This document shows, in pieces, positions 15,187 to 37,658 of a stretch of 64,000 bases of DNA (within the stretch, counting starts at the first letter, position 1; the number at the start of each line of letters is the position of its first letter). The position numbers were made by a program, and so were the translations under genes. The stretch is from Daphnia pulex (lineage: Eukaryota > Arthropoda > Branchiopoda > Diplostraca > Daphniidae): NCBI RefSeq assembly GCF_021134715.1, contig NC_060021.1:992001-1056000 (forward strand), read 5' to 3'. The notes below the pieces were generated by a model, which saw only the letters and a list, made by a program, of their open reading frames with translations, was not told where the DNA came from and did no database searches.

Positions 15187-18100
15187 ACAGGCTAAGAACT
15201 CAACACCAAAATGAAAACTAAGTCTCAAAAGGTTCAGGGGAATGTCTTCTATTACCTAGGTTCCAAATATTCAAACATCAAAATAAATTTTTAAAGTTAT
15301 GTGCATTTGAAGTTTTGTTTTGCCATAATTTTTGTGATTTCAAGACTTTACGGTCACACCACAGGCTAAGTACTCAACACCAAAATAAAAACTAATTTTT
15401 AAAATGTTCAGGGGAATGTCCTCTACTACCTTGGTCCCAAACATTCAAACAACAAAATAAATTTCAAAAATTATTAACATTTGAATTTTTTTTTTGCCAT
15501 AATTTTTGTGAATTCAAGACTTCACGGTCACACCACAGGCTTAGTACTCAACACCAAAATAAAAACTAAGTCTCAAAAGGATCAGGGGAATGGCCTCTAT
15601 TACCTAGGTCCCAAATATTCAAACACCAAAATAAATTAAAAAAATTATGTATTGTGTGGAATATGCTACTCTACAATAAAACCACAAGATAACTTATAAG
15701 TTATATCTTGCATTGGCGTTGAAGAAAAATAAAAAATACTGCTTTGGCGAGCTGGGAAACACAACTTCAATGAATTTGAATTTGATATATTTATTGTTTC
15801 GCTTATTCAAAGCGATTTATTCTTACAGGATATATAAATAAATGTCCAATACACCATTTAAAGTTAATTGAATCAATTAATTCATAAAAACATCCATGAT
15901 GTTGATGAAATAGAAAAAAGGAGAAATTCTTCCAGGCAGCACAGCACAGCACAGAACAGCACAACACAGCATGCTGGATACCTTTTCTACCATTTATAAA
16001 AGTAATTATCATTCTGAATAAGTGTGGGATATCCTTTTCTACAATATAACCTTACGGTCACACCACAGGCTTAATACCCAACACCAAAATGAAAACTAAG
16101 TCTCAAAACATTGAGGGGACTGTCATCTATTACCTAGGTTTCAAATATTCAAACACCAAAATAAATTTCAAAAGTTATGAGCATTTGAAGTTTTTTCTGC
16201 AACAATTTTTGTGATTTCAAGACTTTACGGTCACACCACAGGCTTAAAACTCAACACCAAAATAAAAACAAAGTCTCAAAAGATTGAGGAGACTGTCCTC
16301 TATTACCTTGGTTTCAAATATTCAAACACCAAAATAAATTTCAAAAGTTATGAGCATTTGAAGTTTTTTCTGCCATCATTTTTGTGATTTCAAGACTTTA
16401 CGGTCACACCACAGGCTTAATACTCAACACCAAAATCAAAACTAAGTCTCAAAAGATTAACAAAACTGTCCTCTATTACCTAGGTTTCAAATATTCAAAC
16501 ACCAAAATAAATTTCAAAGGTTATGAGCATTTGAAGTTTTTTCTGCCATCATTTTTGTGATTTCAAGACTTTACGGTCACACCACAGGCTTAATACTCAA
16601 CACCAAAATGAAAACTAAGTCTCAAAACATTGAGGGGACTGTTCTCTATTACCTAGGTTAAAATATTCAAACACCAAAATAAATTTCAAAAGTTATGAGC
16701 ATTTGAAGTTTTTTCTGCCATCATTTTTGTGATTTCAAGACTTTACGGTCACACCATAGGCTTAATACTCAACACCAAAATAAAAACTAAGTCTCAAAAC
16801 ATTGAGGGGACTGTCCTCTATTACCTAGGTTTCAAATATTCAAACACCAAAATAAATTTCAAAAGTTATGAGCATTTGAAGTTTTTTCTGCAACAATTTT
16901 TGTGATTTCAAGAATTTACGGTCACACCACAGGCTTAAAACTCAACACCAAAATAAAAACAAAGTCTCAAAAGATTGAGGAGACTGTCCTCTATTACCTT
17001 GGTTTCAAATATTCAAACACCAAAATAAATTTCAAAAGTTATGAGCATTTGAAGTTTTTTCTGCCATCATTTTTGTGATTTCAAGACTTTACGGTCACAC
17101 CACAGGCTTAATACTCAACACCAAAATCAAAACTAAGTCTCAAAAGATTAACAAAACTGTTCTCTATTACCTAGGTTTCAAATATTCAAACACCAAAATA
17201 AATTTCAAAGGTTATGAGCATTTGAAGTTTTTTCTGCCATCATTTTTGTGATTTCAAGACTTTACGGTCACACCACAGGCTTAATACTCAACACCAAAAT
17301 GAAAACTAAGTCTCAAAACATTGAGGGGACTGTTCTCTATTACCTAGGTTAAAATATTCAAACACCAAAATAAATTTCAAAAGTTATGAGCATTTGAAGT
17401 TTTTTCTGCCATCATTTTTGTGATTTCAAGACTTTACGGTCACACCACAGGCTTAATACTCAACACCAAAATCAAAACTAAGTCTCAAAAGATTAACAAA
17501 ACTGTTCTCTATTACCTAGGTTTCAAATATTCAAACACCAAAATAAATTTCAAAGGTTATGAGCATTTGAAGTTTTTTCTGCCATCATTTTTGTGATTTC
17601 AAGACTTTACGGTCACACCACAGGCTTAATACTCAACACCAAAATGAAAACTAAGTCTCAAAACATTGAGGGGACTGTTCTCTATTACCTAGGTTAAAAT
17701 ATTCAAACACCAAAATAAATTTCAAAAGTTATGAGCATTTGAAGTTTTTTCTGCCATCATTTTTGTGATTTCAAGACTTTACGGTCACACCATAGGCTTA
17801 ATACTCAACACCAAAATAAAAACTAAGTCTCAAAACATTGAGGGGACTGTCCTCTATTACCTAGGTTTCAAATATTCAAACACCAAAATAAATTTCAAAA
17901 GTTATGAGCATTTGAAGTTTTTTCTGCAACAATTTTTGTGATTTCAAGACTTTACGGTCACACCACAGGCTTAAAACTCAACACCAAAATAAAAACAAAG
18001 TCTCAAAAGATTGAGGAGACTGTCCTCTATTACCTTGGTTTCAAATATTCAAACACCAAAATAAATTTCAAAAGTTATGAGCATTTGAAGTTTTTTCTGC

Positions 18101-18541
18101 CATCATTTTTGTGATTTCAAGACTTTACGGTCACACCACAGGCTTAATACTCAACACCAAAATCAAAACTAAGTCTCAAAAGATTAACAAAACTGTCCTC
18201 TATTACCTAGGTTTCAAATATTCAAACACCAAAATAAATTTCAAAGGTTATGAGCATTTGAAGTTTTTTCTGCCATCATTTTTGTGATTTCAAGACTTTA
18301 CGGTCACACCACAGGCTTAATACTCAACACCAAAATTAAAACTAAGTCTCAAAAGATTAACGGAACTGTCCTCTATTACCTAGGTTTCCAATATTCAAAC
18401 ACCAAAATAAATTTCAAAAGTTATGAGCATTTGAAGTTTTTCTGCCATCATTTTTGTGATTTCAAGACTTTACGGTCACACCACAGGCTTAAAACTCAAC
18501 ACCAAAATGAAAACTAAGTCTCAAAAGATTAAAGGGACTGT
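15187..18541 (+). repeat. Satellite A, ~173-bp monomer, about 18 copies with higher-order order
   Basis: Each monomer carries TTTACGGTCACACCACAGGC, then ACTCAACACCAAAAT and CAAACACCAAAATAAATTTC. Three diverged units (15187-15650) are followed by a non-satellite interruption (about 15650-16055) and then an array of about 15 units with starts spaced 172-175 bp. Variant classes recur in order (see findings). No coding frame is conserved. Confidence 0.92.
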
Positions 18542-18542
18542 A

Positions 18543-21500
18543 AGTATTCTATATAATTATAAAAAATAATACGGATAAAGTATTCTATACTGATTCAACA
18601 CGAAAAATACTAAAACATGTGATAGGAAAGGTCTCTACCACGATTTGGAAATATTTCAGGCTAGATGTTTGGGACGTTTTTTTTTTGGTATTTCTTCAAC
18701 TCCAATAAAACCTGTCACATGAAATGAGTTTCTTCTTATAATTATTGTAAAATAGAGTATTCTATACTGATTCAACATGAAAAATACTAAAACATGTGAT
18801 AGGAAAGGTCTCCACCACGATTTGGAAATATTTCAGGCTAGATGTTTGGGACGTTTTTTTGGTATTTCTTCAACACCAATAAAACCTGTCACATGTTCTG
18901 AGTTTCTTCTTATAATTATTGTAAAACAGAGTATTCTATACTGATTCAACACGAAAAATACTTAAACATGTGATAGGAAAGGTCTCCACCACGATTTGGA
19001 AATATTTCAGGCTAGATGTTTGGGACGTTTTTTTTGGTATTTCTTCAACACCAATGCAACCTGTCACATGTTCTGAGTTTCTTCTTATAATTATTGTAAA
19101 ATAGAGTATTCTATACTGAATCAACACGAAAAATACTAAAACATGTGATAGGAAAGGTCTCCACCACGATTTGGAAATATTTCAGGCTAGATGTTTGGGA
19201 CGTTTTTTGGTATTTCTTCAACACCAATGCAACCTGTCACGTGTACTAAGTTTCTTCTCATAATTTTTGTAAAATAGAGTATTCTATACTGATTCAACAC
19301 GAAAAATACTAAAACATGTGATAGGAAAGGTCTCTACCACGATTTGGAAATATTTCAGGCTAGATGTTTGGGACGTTTCTTTTGGTATTTCTTCAACACC
19401 AATAAAACCTGTCACATGTTCTGAGTTTCTTCTTATAATTATTGTAAAATAGAGTATTCTATACTGATTCAACATGAAAAATACTAAAACATGTGATAGG
19501 AAAGGTCTCCACCACGATTTGGAAATATTTCAGGCTAGATGTTTGGGACGTTTTTTTGGTATTTCTTCAACACCAATGCAACCTGTCACATGTTCTGAGT
19601 TTCTTCTTATAATTATTGTAAAATAGAGTATTCTATACTGATTCAACACGAAAAATACTAAAACATGTGATGGGAAAGGTCTCCACCACGATTTGGAAAT
19701 ATTTCAGGCTAGATGTTTGGGACGTTTTTTTGGTATTTCTTCAACACCAATAAAACCTGTCACATGTTCTGAGTTTCTTCTTATAATTATTGTAAAATAG
19801 AGTATTCTATACTGATTCAACATGAAAAATACTAAAACATGTGATAGGAAAGGTCTCCACCACGATTTGGAAATATTTCAGGCTAGATGTTTGGGACGTT
19901 TTTTTGGTATTTCTTCAACACCAATGCAACCTGTCACATGTTCTGAGTTTCTTCTTATAATTATTGTAAAATAGAGTATTCTATACTGATTCAACACGAA
20001 AAATACTAAAACATGTGATGGGAAAGGTCTCCACCACGATTTGGAAATATTTCAGGCTAGATGTTTGGGACGTTTTTTTGGTATTTCTTTAACACCAATG
20101 CAACCTGTCACATGAACTGAGTTTCTTCTTAAAATTATTGTAAAATAAAGTATTCTATACTGATTCAACACGAAAAATACTAAAACATGTGATAGGAAAG
20201 GTCTCTACCACGATTTGGAAATATTTCAGGCTAGATGTTTGGGACGTTTTTTTTGGTATTTCTTCAACACCAATAAAACCTGTCACATGTTCTGAGTTTC
20301 TTCTTATAATTATTGTAAAATAGAGTATTCTATACTGATTCAACATGAAAAATACTAAAACATGTGATAGGAAAGGTCTCCACCACGATTTGGAAATATT
20401 TCAGGCTAGATGTTTTGGACGTTTTTTTGGTATTTCTTCAACACCAATGCAACCTTACACGTGTACTAAGTTTCTTCTCATAATTTTTGTAAAATAGAGT
20501 ATTCTATACTGATTCAACACGAAAAATACTAAAACATGTGATAGGAAAGGTCTCTACCACGATTTGGAAATATTTCAGGCTAGATGTTTGGGACGTTTCT
20601 TTTGGTATTTCTTCAACACCAATAAAACCTGTCACATGTTCTGAGTTTCTTCATATAATTATTGTAAAATAGAGTATTCTATACTGATTCAACATGAAAA
20701 ATACTAAAACATGTGATAGGAAAGGTCTCCACCACGATTTGGAAATATTTCAGGCTAGATTTTTGGGACGTTTTTTTGGTATTTCTTCAACACCAATGCA
20801 ACCTGTCACATGTTCTGAGGTTCTTCTTATAATTATTGTAAAATTGAGTATTCTATACTGATTCAACACGAAAAATACTAAAACATGTGATGGGAAAGGT
20901 CTCCACCACGATTTGGAAATATTTCAGGCTAGATGTTTGGGACGTTTTTTTGGTATTTCTTCAACACCAATAAAACCTGTCACATGTTCTGAGTTTCTTC
21001 TTATAATTATTGTAAAATAGAGTATTCTATACTGATTCAACATGAAAAATACTAAAACATGTGATAGGAAAGGTCTCCACCACGATTTGGAAATATTTCA
21101 GGCTAGTTGTTTGGGACGTTTTTTTGGTATTTCTTCAACACCAATGCAACCTGTCACATGTTCTGAGTTTCTTCTTAAAATTATTGTAAAATAGAGTATT
21201 CTATACTGATTCAACACGAAAAATACTAAAACATGTGATGGGAAAGGTCTCCACCACGATTTGGAAATATTTCAGGCTAGATGTTTGGGACGTTTTTTTG
21301 GTATTTCTTCAACACCAATAAAACCTGTCACATGTTCTGAGTTTCTTCTTATAATTATTGTAAAATAGAGTATTCTATACCGATTCAACATGAAAAATAC
21401 TAAAACATGTGATAGGAAAGGTCTCCACCACGATTTGGAAATATTTCAGGCTAGATGTTTGGGACGTTTTTTTGGTATTTCTTCAACACCAATGCAACCT

Positions 21501-24500
21501 GTCACATGTTCTGAGTTTCTTCTTATAATTATTGTAAAATAGAGTATTCTATACTGATTCAACACGAAAAATACTAAAACATGTGATGGGAAAGGTCTCC
21601 ACCACGATTTGGAAATATTTCAGGCTAGATGTTTGGGACGTTTTTTTGGTATTTCTTCAACACCAATGCAACCTGTCACATGAAATGAGTTTCTTCTTAT
21701 AATTTTTTTAAAATAGAGTATTCTATACTGATTCAACACGAAAAACACTAAAACATGTGATAGGAAAGGTCTCCACCACGATTTGGAAATATTTCAGGCT
21801 AGATGTTTTGGACGTTTTTTTGGTATTTCTTTAACACCAATGCAACCTGTCACATGAACTGAATTTCTTCTTAAAATTATTGTAAAATAAAGTATTCTAT
21901 ACTGATTCAACACGAAAAATACTAAAACATGTGATAGGAAAGGTCTCTACCACGATTTGGAAATATTTAAGGCTAGATGTTTGGGACGTTTTTTTTGGTA
22001 TTTCTTCAACACCAATGCAACCTGTCACATGTTCTGAGTTTCTTCTTATAATTATTGTAAAATAGAGTATTCTATACTGATTCAACATGAAAAATACTAA
22101 AACATTTGATAGGAAAGGTCTCCACCACGATTTGGAAATATTTCAGGCTAGATGTTTGGGACGTTTTTTTGGTATTTCTTCAACACCAATGCAACCTGTC
22201 ACATGTTCTGAGTTTCTTCTTATAATTATTGTAAAATAGAGTATTCTATACTGATTCAACACGAAAAATACTAAAACATGTGATGGGAAAGGTCTCCACC
22301 ACGATTTGGAAATATTTCAGGCTAGATGTTTGGGACGTTTTTTTTTGGTATTTCTTCAACACCAATGCAACCTGTCACATGAAATGAGTTTCTTCTTATA
22401 ATTTTTTTTTAAATAGAGTATTCTATACTGATTCAACACGAAAAACACTAAAACATGTGATAGGAAAGGTCTCCACCACGATTTGGAAATATTTCAGGCT
22501 AGATTTTTTGGACGTTTTTTTGGTATTTCTTCAACACCAATGCAACCTGTCACGTGTACTAAGTTTCTTCTCATAATTTTTGTAAAATATAGTATTCTAT
22601 ACTGATTCAACACGAAAAATACTAAAACATGTGATAGGAAAGGTCTCTACCACGATTTGGAAATATTTCAGGCTAGATTTTTGGGACGTTTCTTTTGGTA
22701 TTTCTTCAACACCAATAAAACCTGTCACATGTTCTGAGTTTCTTCTTATAATTATTGTAAAATAGAGTATTCTATACTGATTCAACATGAAAAATACTAA
22801 AACATGTGATAGGAAAGGTCTCCACCACGATTTGGAAATATTTCAGGCTAGATGTTTGGGACGTTTTTTTGGTATTTCTTCAACACCAATGCAACCTGTC
22901 ACATGTTCTGAGTTTCTTCTTATAATTATTGTAAAATAGAGTATTCTATACTTATTCAACACGAAAAATACTAAAACATGTGATGGGAAAGGTCTCCACC
23001 ACGATTTGGAAATATTTCAGGCTAGATGTTTGGGACGTTTTTTTGGTATTTCTTCAACACCAATGCAACCTGTCACATGTTCTGAGTTTCTTCTTATAAT
23101 TATTGTAAAATAGAGTATTCTATACTGATTCAACACGAAAAATACTAAAACATGTGATGGGAAAGGTCTCCACCACGAATTGGAAATATTTCAGGCTAGA
23201 TGTTTGGGACGTTTTTTTGGTATTTCTTCAACACCAATGCAACCTGTCACATGAAAGGAGTTTCTTCTTATAATTTTTTTAAAATAGAGTATTCTATACT
23301 GATTCAACACGAAAAACACTAAAACATGTGATAGGAAAGGTCTCCACCACGATTTGGAAATATTTCAGACTAGATGTTTTGGACGTTTTTTTGGTATTTC
23401 TTTAACACCAATGCAACCTGTCACATGAACTGAATTTCTTCTTAAAATTATTGTAAAATAAAGTATTCTATACTGATTCAACACGAAAAATACTAAAACA
23501 TGTGATAGGAAAGGTCTCTACCACGATTTGGAAATATTTAAGGCTAGATGTTTGGGACGTTTTTTTTGGTATTTCTTCAACACCAATGCAACCTGTCACA
23601 TGTTCTGAGTTTCTTCTTATAATTATTGTAAAATAGAGTATTCTATACTGATTCAACATGAAAAATACTAAAACATTTGATAGGAAAGGTCTCCACCACG
23701 ATTTGGAAATATTTCAGGCTAGATGTTTGGGACGTTTTTTTGGTATTTCTTCAACACCAATGCAACCTGTCACATGTTCTGAGTTTCTTCTTATAATTAT
23801 TGTAAAATAGAGTATTCTATACTGATTCAACATGAAAAATACTAAAACATGTGATAGGAAAGGTCTCCACCACGATTTGGAAATATTTCAGGCTAGATGT
23901 TTTGGACGTTTTTTTGGTATTTCTTCAACACCAATGCAACCTGACACGTGTACTAAGTTTCTTCTCATAATTTTTGTAAAATAGAGTATTCTATACTGAT
24001 TCAACACGAAAAATACTAAAACATGTGATAGGAAAGGTCTCTACCACGATTTGGAAATATTTCAGGCTAGATGTTTGGGACGTTTCTTTTGGTATTTCTT
24101 CAACACCAATAAAACCTGTCACATGTTCTGAGTTTCTTCATATAATTATTGTAAAATAGAGTATTCTATACTGATTCAACATGAAAAATACTAAAACATG
24201 TGATAGGAAAGGTCTCCACCACGATTTGGAAATATTTCAGGCTAGATGTTTGGGACGTTTCTTTTGGTATTTCTTCAACACCAATAAAACCTGTCACATG
24301 TTCTGAGTTTCTTCATATAATTATTGTAAAATAGAGTATTCTATACTGATTCAACATGAAAAATACTAAAACATGTGATAGGAAAGGTCTCCACCACGAT
24401 TTGGAAATATTTCAGGCTAGATTTTTGGGACGTTTTTTGGTATTTCTTCAACACTAATGCAACCTGTCACATGTTCTGAGTTTCTTCTTATAATTATTGT

Positions 24501-27500
24501 AAAATAGAGTATTCTATACTGATTCAACACGAAAAATACTAAAACATGTGATAGGAAAGGTCTCTACCACGATTTGGAAATATTTCAGGCTAGATGTTTG
24601 GGACGTTTTTTTTTTGGTATTTCTTCAACACCAATAAAACCTGTCACATGTTCTGAGTTTCTTCTTATAATTATTGTAAAATAGAGTATTCTATACTGAT
24701 TCAACATGAAAAATACTAAAACATGTGATAGGAAAGGTCTCCACCACGATTTGGAAATATTTCAGGCTAGATGTTTGGGACGTTTTTTTGGTATTTCTTT
24801 AACACCAATGCAACCTGTCACATGAACTGAGTTTCTTCTTAAAATTATTGTAAAATAAAGTATTCTATACTGATTCAACACGAAAAATACTAAAACATGT
24901 GATAGGAAAGGTCTCTACCACGATTTGGAAATATTTCAGGCTAGATGTTTGGGACGTTTTTTTTTTGGTATTTCTTCAACACCAATAAAACCTGTCACAT
25001 GTTCTGAGTTTCTTCTTATAATTATTGTAAAATAGAGTATTCTATACTGATTCAACATGAAAAATACTAAAACATGTGATAGGAAAGGTCTCCACCACGA
25101 TTTGGAAATATTTCAGGCTAGATGTTTGGGACGTTTTTTTGGTATTTCTTCAACACCAATGCAACCTGTCACATGTTCTGAGTTTCTTCTTATAATTATT
25201 GTAAAATAGAGTATTCTATACTGATTCAACACGAAAAATACTAAAACATGTGATGGGAAAGGTCTCTACCACGATTTGGAAATATTTCAGGCTAGATGTT
25301 TGGGACGTTTTTTTTGGTATTTCTTCAACACCAATGCAACCTGTCACATGAAATGAGTTTCTTCTTATAATTTTTTTTTTAATAGAGTATTCTATACTGA
25401 TTCAACACGAAAAACACTAAAACATGTGATAGGAAAGGTCTCCACCACGATTTGGAAATATTTCAGGCTAGATTTTTTGGACGTTTTTTTGGTATTTCTT
25501 CAACACCAATGCAACCTGTCACGTGTACTAAGTTTCTTCTCATAATTTTTGTAAAATATAGTATTCTATACTGATTCAACACGAAAAATACTAAAACATG
25601 TGATAGGAAAGGTCTCCACCACGATTTGGAAATATTTCAGGCTAGATTTTTGGGACGTTTTTTTGGTATTTCTTCAACACTAATGCAACCTGTCACATGT
25701 TCTGAGTTTCTTCTTATAATTATTGTAAAATAGAGTATTCTATACTGATTCAACACGAAAAATACTAAAACATGTGATGGGAAAGGTCTCCACCACGATT
25801 TGGAAATATTTCAGGCTAGATGTTTTGGACGTTTTTTTGGTATTTCTTCAACACCAATAAAACCTGTCACATGTTCTGAGTTTCTTCTTATAATTATTGT
25901 AAAATAGAGTATTCTATACTGATTCAACATGAAAAATACTAAAACATGTGATAGGAAAGGTCTCCACCACGATTTGGAAATATTTCAGGCTAGATGTTTG
26001 GGACGTTTTTTTTTGGTATTTCTTCAACACCAATAAAACCTGTCACATGAAATGAGTTTCTTCTTATAATTTTTTTAAAATAGAGTATTCTATACTGATT
26101 CAACACGAAAAACACTAAAACATGTGATAGGAAAGGTCTCCACCACGATTTGGAAATATTTCAGGCTAGATGTTTGGGACGTTTTTTTGGTATTTCTTTA
26201 ACACCAATGCAACCTGTCACATGAACTGAGTTTCTTCTTAAAATTATTGTAAAATAAAGTATTCTATACTGATTCAACACGAAAAATACTAAAACATGTG
26301 ATAGGAAAGGTCTCTACCACCATTTGGAAATATTTCAGGCTAGATGTTTGGGACGTTTTTTTTTTGGTATTTCTTCAACACCAATAAAACCTGTCACATG
26401 TTCTGAGTTTCTTCTTATAATTATTGTAAAATAGAGTATTCTATACTGATTCAACATGAAAAATACTAAAACATGTGATAGGAAAGGTCTCCACCACGAT
26501 TTGGAAATATTTCAGGCTAGATGTTTGGGACGTTTTTTTGGTATTTCTTCAACACCAATGCAACCTGTCACATGTTCTGAGTTTCTTCTTATAATTATTG
26601 TAAAATAGAGTATTCTATACTGATTCAACACGAAAAATACTAAAACATGTGATGGGAAAGGTCTCCACCACGATTTGGAAATATTTCAGGCTAGATGTTT
26701 GGGACGTTTTTTTGGTATTTCTTCAACACCAATGCAACCTGTCACATGAAATGAGTTTTTTCTTATAATTTTTTAAAAATAGAGTATTCATACTGATTCA
26801 ACACGAAAAACACTAAAACATGTGATAGGAAAGGTCTCCACCACGATTTGGAAATATTTCAGGCTAGATGTTTGGGACGTTTTTTTGGTATTTCTTCAAC
26901 ACCAATGCAACCTGTCACGTGTACTAAGTTTCTTCTCATAATTTTTGTAAAATAGAGTATTCTATACTGATTCAACACGAAAAATACTAAAACATGTGAT
27001 AGGAAAGGTCTCTACCACGATTTGGAAATATTTCAGGCTAGATGTTTGGGACGTTTTTTTTGGTATTTCTTCAACACCAATAAAACCTGTCACATGTTCT
27101 GAGTTTCTTCTTATAATTATTGTAAAATAGAGTATTCTATACTGATTCAACATGAAAAATACTAAAACATGTGATAGGAAAGGTCTCCACCACGATTTGG
27201 AAATATTTCAAGCTAGATGTTTGGGACGTTTTTTTGGTATTTCTTCAACACCAATGCAACCTGTCACATGTTCTGAGTTTCTTCTTATAATTATTGTAAA
27301 CTAGAGTATCCTATACTGATTCAACACGAAAAATACTAAAACATGTGATGGGAAAGGTCTCCACCACGATTTGGAAATATTTCAGGCTAGATGTTTGGGA
27401 CGTTTTTTTGGTATTTCTTCAACACCAATGCAACCTGTCACATGAAATGAGTTTCTTCTTATAATTTTTTTAAAATAGAGTATTCTATACTGATTCAACA

Positions 27501-29925
27501 CGAAAAACACTAAAACATGTGATAGGAAAGGTCTCCACCACGATTTGGAAATATTTCAGGCTAGATGTTTCGGACGTTTTATTGGTATTTCTTCAACACC
27601 AATGCAACCTGTCACATGTTCTGAGTTTCTTCTTATAATTATTGTAAAATAGAGTATTCTATACTGATTCAACACGAAAAATACTAAAACATGTGATGGG
27701 AAAGGTCTCCACCACGATTTGGAAATATTTCAGGCTAGATGTTTTGGACGTTTTTTTGGTATTTCTTCAACACCAATGCAACCTGTCACGTGTACTAAGT
27801 TTCTTCTCATAATTTTTGTAAAATAGAGTATTCTATACTGATTCAACACGAAAAATACTAAAACATGTGATAGGAAAGGTCTCCACCACGATTTGGAAAT
27901 ATTTCAGGCTAGATGTTTTGGACGTTTTTTTGGTATTTCTTCAACACCAATGCAACCTGTCACGTGTACTAAGTTTCTTCTCATAATATTTGTAAAATAG
28001 AGTATTCTATACTGATTCAACACGAAAAATACTAAAACATGTGATGGGAAAGGTCTCCACCACGATTTGGAAATATTTCAGGCTAGATGTTTGGGACGTT
28101 TTTTTGGTATTTCTTCAACACCAATGCAACCTGTCACATGAAATGAGTTTCTTCTTATAATTTTTTTAAAATAGAGTATTCTATACTGATTCAACACGAA
28201 AAATACTAAAACATGTGATAGGAAAGGTCTCTACCACGATTTGGAAATATTTCAGGCTAGATGTTTTGGACGTTTTTTTGGTATTTCTTCAACACCAATG
28301 CAACCTGTCACGTGTACTAAGTTTCTTCTCATAATTTTTGTAAAATAGAGTATTCTATACTGATTCAACACGAAAAATACTAAAACATGTGATAGGAATG
28401 GTCTCTACCACGATTTGGAAATATTTCAGGCTAGATGTTTGGGACGTTTTTTTTTGGTATTTCTTCAACACCAATGCAACCTGTCACATGAACTGAGTTT
28501 TTCTTAAAATTATTGTAAAATAAAGTATTCTATACTGATTCAACACGAAAAATACTAAAACATGTGATAGGAAAGGTCTCCACCACGATTTGGAAATATT
28601 TCAGGCTAGATGTTTGGGACGTTTTTTTTGGTATTTCTTCAACACCAATGCAACCTGTCACATGAAATGAGTTTCTTCTTATAATTTTTTTAAAATAGAG
28701 TATTCTATACTGATTCAACACGAAAAATACTAAAACATGTGATAGGAAAGGTCTCCACCACGATTTGGAAATATTTCAGGCTAGATGTTTTGGACGTTTT
28801 TTTGGTATTTCTTCAACACCAATGCAACCTGTCACGTGTACTAAGTTTCTTCTCATAATTTTTGTAAAATAGAGTATTCTATACTGATTAAACACGAAAA
28901 ATACTAAAACATGTGATAGGAAAGGTCTCCACCACGATTTTGAAATATTTCAGGCTAGATATTTGGGACGTTTTTTTGGTATTTCTTTAACACCAATGCA
29001 ACCTGTCACATGAACTGAGTTTCTTCTTAAAATTATTGTAAAATAAAGTATTCTATACTGATTCAACACGAAAAATACTAAAACATGTGATAGGAAAGGT
29101 CTCTACCACGATTTGGAAATATTTCAGGCTAGATGTTTGGGACGTTTTTTTTTGGTATTTCTTCAACACCAATAAAACCTGTCACATGTTCTGAGTTTCT
29201 TCTTATAATTATTGTAAAATAGAGTATTCTATACTGATTCAACATGAAAAATACTAAAACATGTGATAGGAAAGGTCTCCACCACGATTTGGAAATATTT
29301 CAGGCTAGATGTTTCGGACGTTTTATTGGTATTTCTTCAACACCAATGCAACCTGTCACATGTTCTGAGTTTCTTCTTATAATTATTGTAAAATAGAGTA
29401 TTCTATACTGATTCAACACGAAAAATACTAAAACATGTGATGGGAAAGGTCTCCACCACGATTTGGAAATATTTCAGGCTAGATGTTTGGGACGTTTTTT
29501 TTGTATTTCTTCAACACCAATGCAACCTGTCACGTGTACTAAGTTTCTTCTCATAATTTTTGTAAAATAGAGTATTCTATACTGATTCAACACGAAAAAT
29601 ACTAAAACATGTGATAGGAAAGGTCTCCACCACGATTTGGAAATATTTCAGGCTAGATGTTTTGGACGTTTTTTTTGGTATTTCTTCAACACCAATGCAA
29701 CCTGTCACGTGTACTAAGTTTCTTCTTATAATTATTGTAAAATAGAGTATTCTATACTGATTCAACTTGAAAAATACTAAAACATGTGATAGGAAAGGTC
29801 TCCACCACGATTTGGAAATATTTCAGGCTAGATGTTTGGGACGTTTTTTTGGTATTTCTTCAACACCAATGCAACCTGTCACATGTACTGAGTTTCTTCT
29901 TATAATTTTTGTAAAATAGAGTATT
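18543..29925 (+). repeat. Satellite B, ~174-bp monomer, about 65 tandem copies (11.4 kb)
   Basis: Each monomer contains TATTCTATACTGATTCAAC, GATTTGGAAATATTTCAGGC, a variable poly-T tract after GGGACG, and CTTCAACACCAAT. Spacing of the first units is 177, 174, 175 and 173 bp, the variation coming largely from the T tract. Neighbouring copies are nearly identical. Monomers differ by diagnostic variants (acg/atg after TCAAC, gatagg/gatggg, aatgcaacc/aataaaacc, four spacer types). Recurrent 63-codon minus-strand frames here are by-products of the monomer. Confidence 0.96.
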
Positions 29926-30138
29926 GAAACGATGTTGTGGTTTTATTGTAGAATAAGGTATTTTACACAGATTCAGAGTGATAATCACCGTTATAAAAGA
30001 TAGGAAAGGTCTCTCTCCCCGTTCTCGCGCTACAAAAGTGCAAAGCCATGCTGCGTTGCCAGATAAAACGGTAAAAGAAAACAGATCCCGAAGAGCCCTT
30101 TAGGACGTTCTCCGTTCTCGGATGATTGTTTTTAGGTT
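29926..30138. other. Array edge with a diverged satellite B relic
   Basis: The last clean monomer ends near 29925. The following ~85 bp still show GATTCAGAGTGATAATCACC and GATAGGAAAGGTCTCT, a strongly diverged monomer, before unique GC-richer sequence. Confidence 0.6.
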
Positions 30139-33074: not shown

Positions 33075-36000
33075 ATGTCAGAAGCCACCTCGTTAAACAA
33101 CAGCGGCACGAAGCTGATGATTTACAACAGTCTGACTCGCAAGAAGGAGGTGTTCACTCCGCAGAATGGCAACAACATCACCTGGTACTCTTGCGGACCC
33201 ACAGTCTACGATGCCTCCCACATGGGCCACGCCCGCTCCTACATGCACAGCAGCGGTAGAATACTTACCTTAACATACTTTAGTGGGCCAGGATTACTTA
33301 CAAGACGAAACTACTTACGAGCTTAACATACTTAAATAGTTTTTTCATACTTAGATTTTGTAAGTAACGAGTAAGCATGTAAGTATGTGCCTCCAACATA
33401 CTTACTTGAATAAAAGAAAAGATTTCCGTAGGAATCGAACACGGGTCTCACGCATCACAGTCAGATGCTTTTCCGCTGTGCCATTCTAGATTTGATTTTA
33501 CCAATTAAATAACCGTTACTAATCAACGGGGGGGTTTAGGACTTAGAGATTTTTATGTCCAAACATCATATTCAATTTTCTCTCCTAAAGCGGCGAGCAT
33601 GTGCCCTTATTCATTTTTTTCACAAAAATGATTTACAGGAAAGCTGCTTTAAACTCGGTACTACCAGTTCCTTCAGTAGATATAAATAGGGCAGCAAGTT
33701 TTTCCTACAATTAATGAAAAAAAAGGAGTTATATTCCTTAAACAAGTAGTTTACATGTATTCTAGAGTTCTACCTGAACGATGGCCATATTTCTTGAATA
33801 ATGCTCATGGATGGACTGAGAAACAAAGAGCAGGGCCTCGTAGGTCAGGAAATATCTTTGTCGCAACATAAGTAGCAAGCCAGCCTCCCATTCAAATTCA
33901 CTAAACGCAGCACCATGAGTGAAAAGGAGGGATTCAATGTCACGATGAGCAGCAGGAACCAAATTTTGCTGGCCAAAATGTTTGGGGTTGTTGTTCGTGA
34001 TCAAAATCATGCCTATCTTCAGCTGATGATTGTTCAAGACCAGCCCTGACGCCATCAGTTGTGTTACTACTAGCAATAACAACATCTTCAATGGACGTGG
34101 GATCACTAGCCTCGTCGACTAACAAGTTGAATCCAGTAGTCGATATATATAGGCTAAGCTCAATCAAATTTCAAAAGTGAGCAAAAGTACAAGTACAAAG
34201 TACAAGTATGTTATTAGCTGTTTAAGTATGTATACGACGAAAATAAGTATGAAAAATAGGTATAAGTATGTTCGTCCAATATACTTACAAATTTACAATA
34301 CTTACAAATAGTTGAACATACTTACAACTCCCTAAACTACTTGATATTTAAAAAAGATAGTGCTTGCAAGTATGAAAATGAGTTGTAAGTACGTTAAAAA
34401 ATATTTCAAGTAGGAAATTTTCCAAATTAAGTATGAAAAAAGCCCTACTTGACAAATTCAGTACTTTTAACCTACTAACATACTGGAAATTAAGTATGTT
34501 ACCGCTGCTGTGTGTCCTTCGACATCCTGCGGAGGGTCCTGAGAGACTACTTTGGCTACGACATTACTTACGTCATGAACATCACCGACATCGACGACAA
34601 GGTAAGGCATCAATTACAATTACAACAACCAAACATTTGAAAAACTATAATTTAATTGATGTAATTGATTTAACTAAGATCATCAAAAGAGCCAGGCAGA
34701 ATTATTTGTACGAAAAGTACGCAGCCGAGTCGAGTGAGCTGGAAACTCTCCGAAAAGATGTCGAGGAATCTGTCGGCCGTCTAGCCAAACAAATGGCGGT
34801 GACCACCGATCCCGATAAGAAAGTCATGCAGGAGACGATGCTGGCCAAAGTCACCGCCGCCATTAACAAATCGGCCGAAATAACCATCAAAGCTGCGGAT
34901 GGTCTATGCCACGATGCCAAGAGCTTTTTGTTGGCGGAAGCCAAAGACGTTTTGAGCGACTGGCTCGACTCCAAGCACGGCATGGACGTTTCGGACAACG
35001 CCATTTTCGCTTCACTCCCGCGATACTGGGAGGAGGAATTCTACAAAGACATGGCCGCTCTCAACGTCCTACCCGCCGACGTGATTACTCGCGTCAGCGA
35101 ATACGTCCCGGAGATTGTCGATTACATCGCCAAAATTATGGAACGTGGATTTGCATATTCGGGTGAGAGATTTTCTTACTTTTTCTTCTATTACGTCTTG
35201 TGAAATAATTTCTTTGGTTTTATTATTTTGAAGCCAATGGCTCTGTGTACTTTGATGTCTCCAAATTCGATTCGCAAAAGAATCACAAGTACGCCAAATT
35301 GGTGCCGGAGGCTTACGGCGACTCCAAAGCCCTGCAGGAAGGCGAAGGCGATCTGAGCGTCTCCGAAGATCGTCTGAGCGAGAAGAAATCGCCCAACGAT
35401 TTCGCCCTGTGGAAAAATTCCAAGAGCGGCGAGCCTTCGTGGGATTCTCCATGGGGAAAAGGTAATCACAAATTCATGAACTTTTGAATGGATTGCGTTA
35501 TGAGTTATGTAATATTTGGTTTTTCATTCAGGACGTCCTGGTTGGCATATTGAATGCAGCGTGATGGCCAGTGCAATTTTGGGGTCGTCAATGGATTTTC
35601 ACACGGGCGGCGTCGACCTCAAGTTCCCCCATCACGACAACGAACTTGCCCAGTCTGAAGCCTATTACGATAACGACGAATGGGTTCGCTATTTCCTTCA
35701 CACCGGTCATCTGACCATCCAGGTAAATACTAAATACTAAATGCAAACTTAACAAGTCACTCCTCCCAACTCTAATGAATTGGGCAGGGTTGCAAAATGT
35801 CCAAATCGCTCAAGAACTTCATCACGATCCAAGATGCGCTGAGTCGCAACAGCAGCCGCGAATTGCGTATCTTCTTCCTGCTGCACCAGTGGAAGGAAAC
35901 GCTCGACTACAGCGACAGCGCCATGGAAGAAGCCTCGAGCTACGAGAAAATGCTCAGGGAATTCTTCCTCAACGCCAAGGATCTCTTGAGGAGCGGCCCG

Positions 36001-36702
36001 ACTGCTGCCGCCATCACCGCCCATCAGCAGCAACATTTCCAAAAATGGAGCGACGCCGAGCGGGAACTCAACCAGCGGTTCGTCCAAGCCAAAAATCGAG
36101 TGCGCCAAGCTCTCTGCGATAATATCGACACTAAAACTTCCTTGGAGGCCATCAAGAGCCTGATTTCAGACTGCAACAAATATCTGGCGCGGATGAAACG
36201 ATCGGCCAACCGGGTGCTGATCAAGTCCGTCGCCGAATACGTCACACGATTGTTCCAGATCTTTGGCGTGATCGAAGGCAAGCAAACCCTCGGATTTCCC
36301 AGCACTGAATCGTCTGCTGGCGGACCAGGTAATAATGACATTAGCGCCGAAGAAATCGTCATGCCCGTCCTGGAAGCGCTGGCGGAATTCCGGGAAGAAG
36401 TGAGGAAAGAAGCTCGACAGTTAGGGGCGAAGCCAGTTCTGGAACTTTGCGATCGATTTCGAGATGATGTCTTGCCCAGCTTGGGCGTACGACTGGAAGA
36501 TCGTGAGGGTCAACCACCTGCTTTGAAGCTCGTCCCGCGTGATGAACTCCTCAAGGAGATGAAACTTCTCAAGGAGAAACTCCTTACGGAGAAAGAAGAG
36601 AGAAAGGATGCCAGACAAGCTGAGCTAAATCGTAAAAAGATACAGTTAGAAGAATTGCGAGAAGCAAGGGATGCCAGACGAGCTGCGTTAAATCATCAAT
36701 AG
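33075..36702 (+). CDS. CARS1: Cysteine--tRNA ligase, cytoplasmic (701 aa as spliced)
   Basis: Exons 33075-33255, 34495-34601, 34679-35162, 35234-35461, 35532-35722 and 35788-36702 join in frame to TAG. The enzyme charges tRNA-Cys with cysteine in the cytosol. Visible class Ia features: zinc-ligand Cys in '[10 protein letters not shown]'; the HIGH motif as 'HMGHAR'; 'MNITDIDDK' followed by '[14 protein letters not shown]'; the eukaryote-specific insert (residues ~110-200, '[16 protein letters not shown]'); 'WHIECSVMA'; '[13 protein letters not shown]'; and the 'KMSKSLKNF' loop. The C-terminus is a Lys/Glu-rich helix. It lacks the conserved tail that follows in animal orthologues as remembered. 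Intron 1 is a transposon-like insert placed directly behind the HIGH motif; splicing as drawn adds about 10 residues there. Confidence 0.93.
33243..34511. mobile_element. ~1.27-kb DNA-transposon-like insert in the cysteinyl-tRNA synthetase gene
   Basis: It begins CACAGCAGCGGTA and ends with the exact complement, 13-bp perfect terminal inverted repeats, and interrupts the codons between Tyr-Met and Ser-Phe-Asp of an otherwise conserved stretch. Both ends are crowded with TACTTAC/GTAAGTATG-type subterminal motifs. Open minus-strand fragments at 33762-34167 might be transposase remnants but showed no recognised motif. Only the dinucleotide TG could be a target duplication; no 8-bp repeat was found. 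Confidence 0.72.
33425..33495 (-). pseudogene. tRNA-like relic inside the insert
   Basis: The minus strand reads TGGCACAGCGG, resembling an A box, then a GCATC/GATGC stem with a 7-base loop, then GTTCGATTCC, a good B box. The T and acceptor stems do not pair properly and loop position 33 is not U. It looks like a decayed tRNA or tRNA-derived SINE head, not a working tRNA gene. Confidence 0.45.
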
Positions 36703-37658
36703 ACTTTATTTTATTAGAAGAATTGCGAAAAGAAAGACGAAATGAAATCGGTACGCACATCCCAAGAAATAAAGATAGTAATTAATTGTATAACAATTCA
36801 TTTTGCCACCCAATTGTTATTACGGGAGTATCGTTAACGTCCATTCTTCTTTGATCTACAGGTCAAACGGATAAGTAGTCTGCTTTCAACGAAAGAGATG
36901 CCAATTCTGGAGCTTAACAAGTTGGAGAAAGAATTAATGAGTTAATTTCTAGTACACGAGTAAGATTTTAGATGTATTCGATTCAACCAATTACAAATAC
37001 AATCATTCATATGGCAACCATCAGAGTATGTAAGTGCGGTTTGATTCGACAGGTTATCGTTATTTTCAATCGATCCACGATTTCACTCTGACTTCAAAGT
37101 AGCGCGAAGCAAACGTGCTGCCAATCAGACCAACCTTTTTCCGTTTCTAATTCAATTCATCGCTATCCTTGTCGACTCTTGCGCAAGTCTGTGCTGTGCA
37201 AGAATATCAAATTCGGAAAAGAAATACATTTTTTAAAAAAGACCGCGCATTTGTTTAAAAAAAAGAAAGGAAAAAAATTCAAAAGATTTCATTCTTGAAC
37301 GCTAGGTGGCTTCGAGGATGATGACATTAATAGATATGTGTGAATAAGATTTTTTTTTTTTTATCGAAGTATCAAAGTCTAACGAGCCGGTAGCGATTCC
37401 TCCTTCCTAAACGTTGCTGCTTATCGCTCTATGTCAATTTTACTTTCCGACTTGTTGGTTTGCCGAAAAAAACTTTTGAAAACTTTCAAGGATGTTGGCA
37501 AGTTTAGGATCTTAATACTTTTGGTGTAATAACAACCAGCAATGTACCGAATCAAATATAGGTTGTTAGAAATGTATTTAAATATTTGTATTACAATAGA
37601 ACGCGGAGCAATTTCTCGACTGTGTTTAACGCTGTTATTCTTTGAACGACATTAATTT
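36703..37658. other. Downstream of the synthetase: possible tail relic, then intergenic DNA
   Basis: Just after the stop, TTAGAAGAATTGCG recurs from the end of the ORF. At 36862-36945 a short frame after an acceptor CTACAG encodes about 27 residues ending TAA; it could be an unused alternative terminal exon. The rest is AT-rich and without a gene; a GCTAGGTGGC motif is at 37301. Confidence 0.4.

Follow-up and report, generated by a model that had tools for sequence, protein, structure and literature searches.

A split cysteinyl-tRNA synthetase gene and its paralogue

The window, a stretch of 64,000 nucleotides of the Daphnia pulex genome (C5:992001-1056000), carries on its forward strand a gene for cytosolic cysteinyl-tRNA synthetase (CARS). 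The gene was recognised by its class I (C) catalytic domain, by the HIGH and KMSKS motifs and by its matches to solved CysRS. Its first exon is a single exon split in two by an insert of 1,267 bp, located immediately behind HMGH. The first half (33075 to 33245) runs from the start codon to HARSYM, and the second half (34515 to 34601) from SFDILRR to DIDDK. Exons 2 to 4 follow at 34679 to 35162, 35234 to 35461 and 35532 to 35722, and the present frame ends with a stop codon at the close of exon 5 (35788 to 36702). Joined without the element, these exons encode 691 residues. Elsewhere in the window, a stretch of 14 kb (16001 to 30000) has a uniformly low GC content of 0.32 to 0.33, below that of most of the window.

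The initial annotation had placed at 33243 to 34511 a 1.27-kb insert with perfect terminal inverted repeats (TIRs) of 13 bp, and had described it as splitting the stretch HARSYM/SFDILRR. The insert is real, and its borders on the forward strand were corrected to 33246 and 34512. The left TIR, CACAGCAGCGGTA, occupies 33246 to 33258; the right one, at 34500 to 34512 on the reverse strand, is its exact reverse complement. On either side lies one copy of a target-site duplication TG (33244-33245 and 34513-34514). When one TG is omitted, the exon reads HARSYM-SFDILRR, identical at this place to the paralogue described below, in which the stretch is uninterrupted. The proposed split is confirmed. 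Read-through from the first half of the exon into the element meets a first in-frame stop, TAA, at 33324 to 33326.

The genome was searched over 133,188,837 bases in 13 contigs. A second intact CARS gene, the existence of which the initial annotation had left to be checked, was found at C3:9162585-9165067, and it contains no insert. A pattern corresponding to the uninterrupted site occurred once in the genome, at C3:9162735, within this paralogue. Between the window copy and the C3 paralogue, 581 of 665 aligned residues are identical, with a pairwise dN of 0.074 for a dS of 1.20, so both copies were under purifying selection for a long time. The catalytic domain PF01406 scores 404.3 bits in the window copy, element left out, versus 402.0 in the paralogue; given this score and the past selection, the window copy may still matter. 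Decay of the catalytic core preceding the insertion was looked for in the window copy and not seen. The C-terminal end is in a different state: GMPTLDKDGKEVSKGQLKKLEKL, present in the last exon of the C3 paralogue, is lost from the window copy, where a decayed remnant of this conserved exon lies on the forward strand at 36862 to 36945. This remnant contains a stop when read in the frame of the paralogue, and its alignment to the paralogous exon has gaps of 2, 30, 7 and 34 nt. We concluded that the insertion hit a second copy whose end is shortened, and that this copy is not the only gene for cysteinyl-tRNA synthetase. The description of the interrupted synthetase as essential is weakened by the intact C3 gene and by the decay of the last exon.

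The 77-bp intron that follows DIDDK in the window copy (34602-34678) is absent from the C3 paralogue; the duplicates thus differ by intron gain or loss at this place. Two further PF01406 loci were found on C2, as well as a marginal match on C11. The C2 loci (C2:6835992 and C2:6854050) are CARS-type, lie about 18 kb apart and have identical scores; they may correspond to the mitochondrial enzyme, perhaps duplicated, or to an assembly duplicate.

The element, its copies and its relatives

The initial annotation had asked whether the element occurs elsewhere in the genome. At least 15 full-length copies, the window copy included, were found among at least 38 genome matches, the remainder being fragments or short similarities. 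The objection that no other copy exists therefore falls, and with this many full-length copies the insert is far beyond what chance would produce. The other 14 full-length copies align to the window copy at 96.6 to 98.4% identity, and all 15 have the perfect 13-bp TIR. Matching 2-bp flanks (TA, CA, TG, TT, AA or CT) were observed around 14 of them, the sole exception being L021, flanked by TA and TG. One full copy (L014, C9:3800012-3802079) is nested, with a CA duplication, within an incomplete member of its own family. Compared to the majority sequence, the window copy has 16 substitutions, of which 6 are private in about 1,266 bp, 4 of these falling within 33422-33470. Such a small number of private substitutions points to a recent insertion, and part of them may have been inherited from the source copy.

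Elements of the CACTA/EnSpm superfamily have short TIRs beginning with CAC, produce target-site duplications of 2 to 3 bp with a variable sequence, and contain multiple short subterminal repeats. The TIRs of our element begin with CAC, although its ends read CACAG and not CACTA. Variable 2-bp duplications were found, as described above, in all copies except one, and also in 6 of 8 related elements (L051 and L026/L049 being the exceptions). Thirteen CATACTT/AAGTATG sites are clustered at both ends of the element, 5 in the left subterminal region (33274 to 33403) and 8 in the right one (34204 to 34498). A tnp2-type transposase, finally, is found in relatives with the same ends, not in the window element itself, in which the longest wholly internal ORF measures 118 aa from stop to stop.

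These relatives were approached through the element ends. The genome contains 42 exact matches to the TIR, versus 4 to a reversed control, and 108 matches to the block CACAGCAGCGGTANNNYACTTA with at most 2 mismatches, versus 20 to its control. Two longer elements on C8 are bounded by the terminal block and flanked by a TA duplication. The one at C8:2693333-2700142, with 1 to 2 mismatches in its TIRs, contains a tnp2-like ORF, which matches PF02992 with an E of 6.7e-6 and a score of 25.9 bits, short of the curated cut-off (28.6). The other, at C8:1978283-1984069, has an identical left TIR and an ORF without a Pfam match of its own, which aligns piecewise to the ORF of the first element at 46 to 54% identity. 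Two PF02992 loci above the cut-off exist elsewhere in the genome, and no link was made between them and the terminal block. Two near-identical loci about 34 kb apart (C2:7867198 and C2:7900898) each show a diverged fragment of the element beside a tnp2-like frame.

Judging from its borders, its ORFs and its copies in the same genome, we consider that the insert is best described as a young non-autonomous CACTA/EnSpm-like transposon, since relatives with the same ends carry tnp2-like frames and since it has the 13 subterminal repeat sites. Families of CACTA elements in D. pulex were published in 2010, ten of them in Table 1 of the source (PMC2884549), and our element may already be one of these. 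It resembles CACTA/EnSpm (CMC) transposons in its short CAC-initial TIRs, 2-bp duplications, subterminal repeats and tnp2-type relatives with the same ends, and differs from the superfamily type by its CACAG ends.

Some other features of the element were considered. The segment at about 33409-33485 appeared tRNA-like by eye, with stretches resembling the promoter boxes A and B. Capture of a tRNA was nevertheless dropped, as ARAGORN and Rfam reported no tRNA there. This stretch of about 76 bp recurs in other loci, mostly at 74 to 86% identity. The right end of the element gave no match to viral contigs, in a search from which near records may be left out.

Predicted splicing of the element

According to the initial annotation, the element apparently functions as an intron, with a donor in its left terminus and an acceptor near its right terminus that join in frame and leave about ten extra residues, three of them Cys. 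Such a pair exists on the forward strand. The candidate donor is a GT in the left TIR (33256-33257, GCG/GTAGAA), and the candidate acceptor AG ends at 34494, preceded by a putative branch site TACTAAC (the two together spanning 34473 to 34494) whose A, at 34478, is 16 nt before the acceptor end. The predicted junction, 33255/34495, restores the frame and adds the ten residues HSSVCYRCCV. The TTAAG acceptor is not a bad one here, because AAG is the acceptor in 2 of the 4 introns native to the window gene.

Donors were scored, for GTs from 33200 onward, with a generic table of metazoan weights that was not trained on D. pulex. With this table the donor at 33256 scores -1.7, and all 7 native donors of the gene pair score higher (0.8 to 8.2). 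Inside the element, the GTs at 33360, 33364, 33371, 33379 and 33383 also outscore it (-1.2 to 5.4), yet they lie past the stop at 33324. Among the GTs between 33200 and this stop, in-frame joins are possible from three only: 33256 and 33283, to the acceptor ending at 34494 or to an exon-internal one at 34545, and 33204, only to the exon end at 34601, with loss of the second half of exon 1. The predicted intron, 1.24 kb long, compares with native introns of 65 to 77 bp. The alignments to three solved CysRS, among the matches listed, show no gap at the insertion point.

An in-frame pair lying at most 40 nt from both ends was obtained in 275 of 500 dinucleotide shuffles in which the TIRs were kept, and in 247 of 500 full shuffles; for a pair at any position, the yields were 354 and 292 of 500, respectively. 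The function of the element as a new intron, which is possible, is therefore close to chance level and not supported beyond it. Of the initial proposal, the transposon origin stands, given the multiple copies, the TIRs, the 2-bp duplications, the empty site in the paralogue and the superfamily assignment; as to the intron function, in-frame pairs are common by chance and the donor is weak. The alternative offered by the initial annotation itself, a disrupted allele, is now the likelier one.

The putative splice sites belong to a 22-bp terminal block of this CACTA group, CACAGC(A/G)GCGGTANNNTACTTA. As the donor lies 10 nt from one end and the acceptor 18 nt from the other, and as insertion duplicates 2 bp, 30 nt are predicted to be retained, so ten codons would be left whatever the phase. 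For the window element, tested with the duplication CA, the predicted remnant is free of stops in each of the six combinations of phase and orientation. Out of 1,000 shuffles of either type, 60 with the TIRs kept and 43 full ones gave this outcome. All six combinations are likewise open in 6 of 8 related elements, that is, in 3 of 5 families by our own grouping, in which L052 to L055 form a single family; L050 is open in five, and the element L042+L056 in three. Among the block matches listed, which come from a search whose pattern itself favoured the block, at least 12 have GC where the donor GT would be, and at least 10 have TAATTA, which removes the acceptor AG. The splice sites are thus not conserved across the wider group, and ends conserved for transposase binding are the simpler cause. 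That the terminal block doubles as a frame-neutral splice cassette, the element ends perhaps being moulded in part by selection for insertions that do no harm, appears improbable to us.

The sites of the other copies bear on whether the element belongs to an introner family, specialised in making introns. ORFs spanning the insertion site were scanned with Pfam, independently of annotation, for 13 of the 14 other copies, L014 being left out as it is nested in its own family. In L009 (C3:2096936-2098200) the spanning ORF matches Sushi (22.7 bits, cut-off 20.7). This copy lies inside a native intron, estimated at about 63 nt, of a Sushi-repeat gene, in reverse orientation to the gene and immediately after the GTA of the intron's donor, which is thereby altered. 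L018, by its Pfam match, lies at the margin of a reading frame for a MULE transposase. The scan gave no match for the 11 other copies, a result that does not prove them non-coding. Of the 15 copies, the one in CARS is the only one found within a coding exon of a host gene, instead of the several similar introns in unrelated genes expected of introners. In PMC9860276, an introner family is defined by at least four similar introns, and TIRs and target-site duplications are given for 72 of 177 and 49 of 130 assessable families, respectively. An introner family would agree with the TIRs and duplications of our element, and with a predicted splice pair in the terminal blocks in both orientations. 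Against it stand the single insertion in a coding exon, the location of L009 in a native intron and that of L018 at the MULE frame. On the positions of the copies examined we rejected this explanation, which we regard as very improbable.

Explanations for the locus and known transposon introns

We think it probable that a transposon inserted recently in one of two cytosolic cysteinyl-tRNA synthetase genes, that this copy is largely inactivated, and that the C3 paralogue supplies the enzyme. A tnp2-type transposase produced by relatives with the same ends would have moved the non-autonomous element in trans, and the element would have entered the first coding exon of one CARS duplicate in recent times, duplicating 2 bp. 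Transcripts that read through, or that use the internal donors with better scores, would give a truncated product because of the stop at 33324, leaving the window copy largely inactive and the enzyme to be supplied from C3. Part of the transcripts might be spliced at 33256/34494, which would put ten residues right behind the HIGH motif; that the product of such splicing is a good enzyme is unlikely. The element itself, its copies, the duplication, the empty site, the intact paralogue and the decayed C-terminal exon were all observed. The history of purifying selection, a catalytic domain scoring on a par with that of the paralogue, the native AAG acceptors and the TACTAAC upstream of the acceptor run counter to inactivation.

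Efficient splicing of the element, from the donor in the left TIR to the acceptor in the right subterminal repeat, with a working enzyme ten residues longer, would make the locus a case of intron gain. This would fit the frame restored by the pair, the TACTAAC upstream of the acceptor, the native use of AAG acceptors, a downstream frame intact to 36702 and the splicing of other transposons known from titles. We nevertheless hold it to be unlikely: the donor is weaker than every native donor and the better GTs are behind an in-frame stop, in-frame pairs are frequent in shuffled sequences, the intron would be far longer than the native ones, and the ten residues would interrupt a stretch that is ungapped versus the solved structures listed. 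Compared to a new intron, the better explanation is most likely a duplicate broken by the insertion, perhaps in a heterozygous state or with some splicing. The insertion could also be a rare or heterozygous allele, or private to the sequenced clone, with an intact other haplotype, and represent a mere load mutation. Here we are tentative, and would put the chances somewhat below even. The scarcity of private substitutions and a young-looking family of near-identical copies agree with such an allele, and the assembly represents one allele only; this possibility is, moreover, compatible with a disrupted duplicate rather than opposed to it.

Transposons that are spliced from genes are already known, to judge by titles, and a working intron at this locus would add one more case to them. 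Menssen et al. 1990 reportedly described, by the title, a dSpm insertion in maize A2 in which splice sites at the element termini create a new intron. By our assignment dSpm belongs to the same superfamily as the window element; our case differs in that it comes from an animal, its splicing is predicted only, its donor is weak, and ten residues would remain. Rushforth and Anderson 1996, Fridell 1990 and Giroux 1994 are likewise said, by their titles, to deal with transposon insertions that are spliced out or make introns. Tc1 in C. elegans genes, 412 in an exon of Drosophila vermilion and Ds in maize are reportedly such insertions. These are other elements, and their splicing was, by the titles, seen on RNA, whereas the window case is known from its sequence.

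Introners are also DNA elements with TIRs and target-site duplications, which may supply both splice sites and leave extra codons (PMC9860276). The window element differs in lacking a set of similar introns in different genes. In D. pulex itself, recent intron gain has been documented (PMC4202315). Most of these neointrons are linked to staggered double-strand breaks, and the section on their sources names few, with no DNA transposon among them (PMC4202315), which sets them apart from the present case.

With a clean and recent exon insertion and an empty site in the paralogue, the locus offers a ready test of a DNA transposon becoming an intron. If the junction 33255/34495 is not used, the locus is an unremarkable case of a spare copy broken by a transposon. 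If it is used, the birth of an intron would be caught in the act, and the enzyme would be shown to tolerate ten residues beside its active site.
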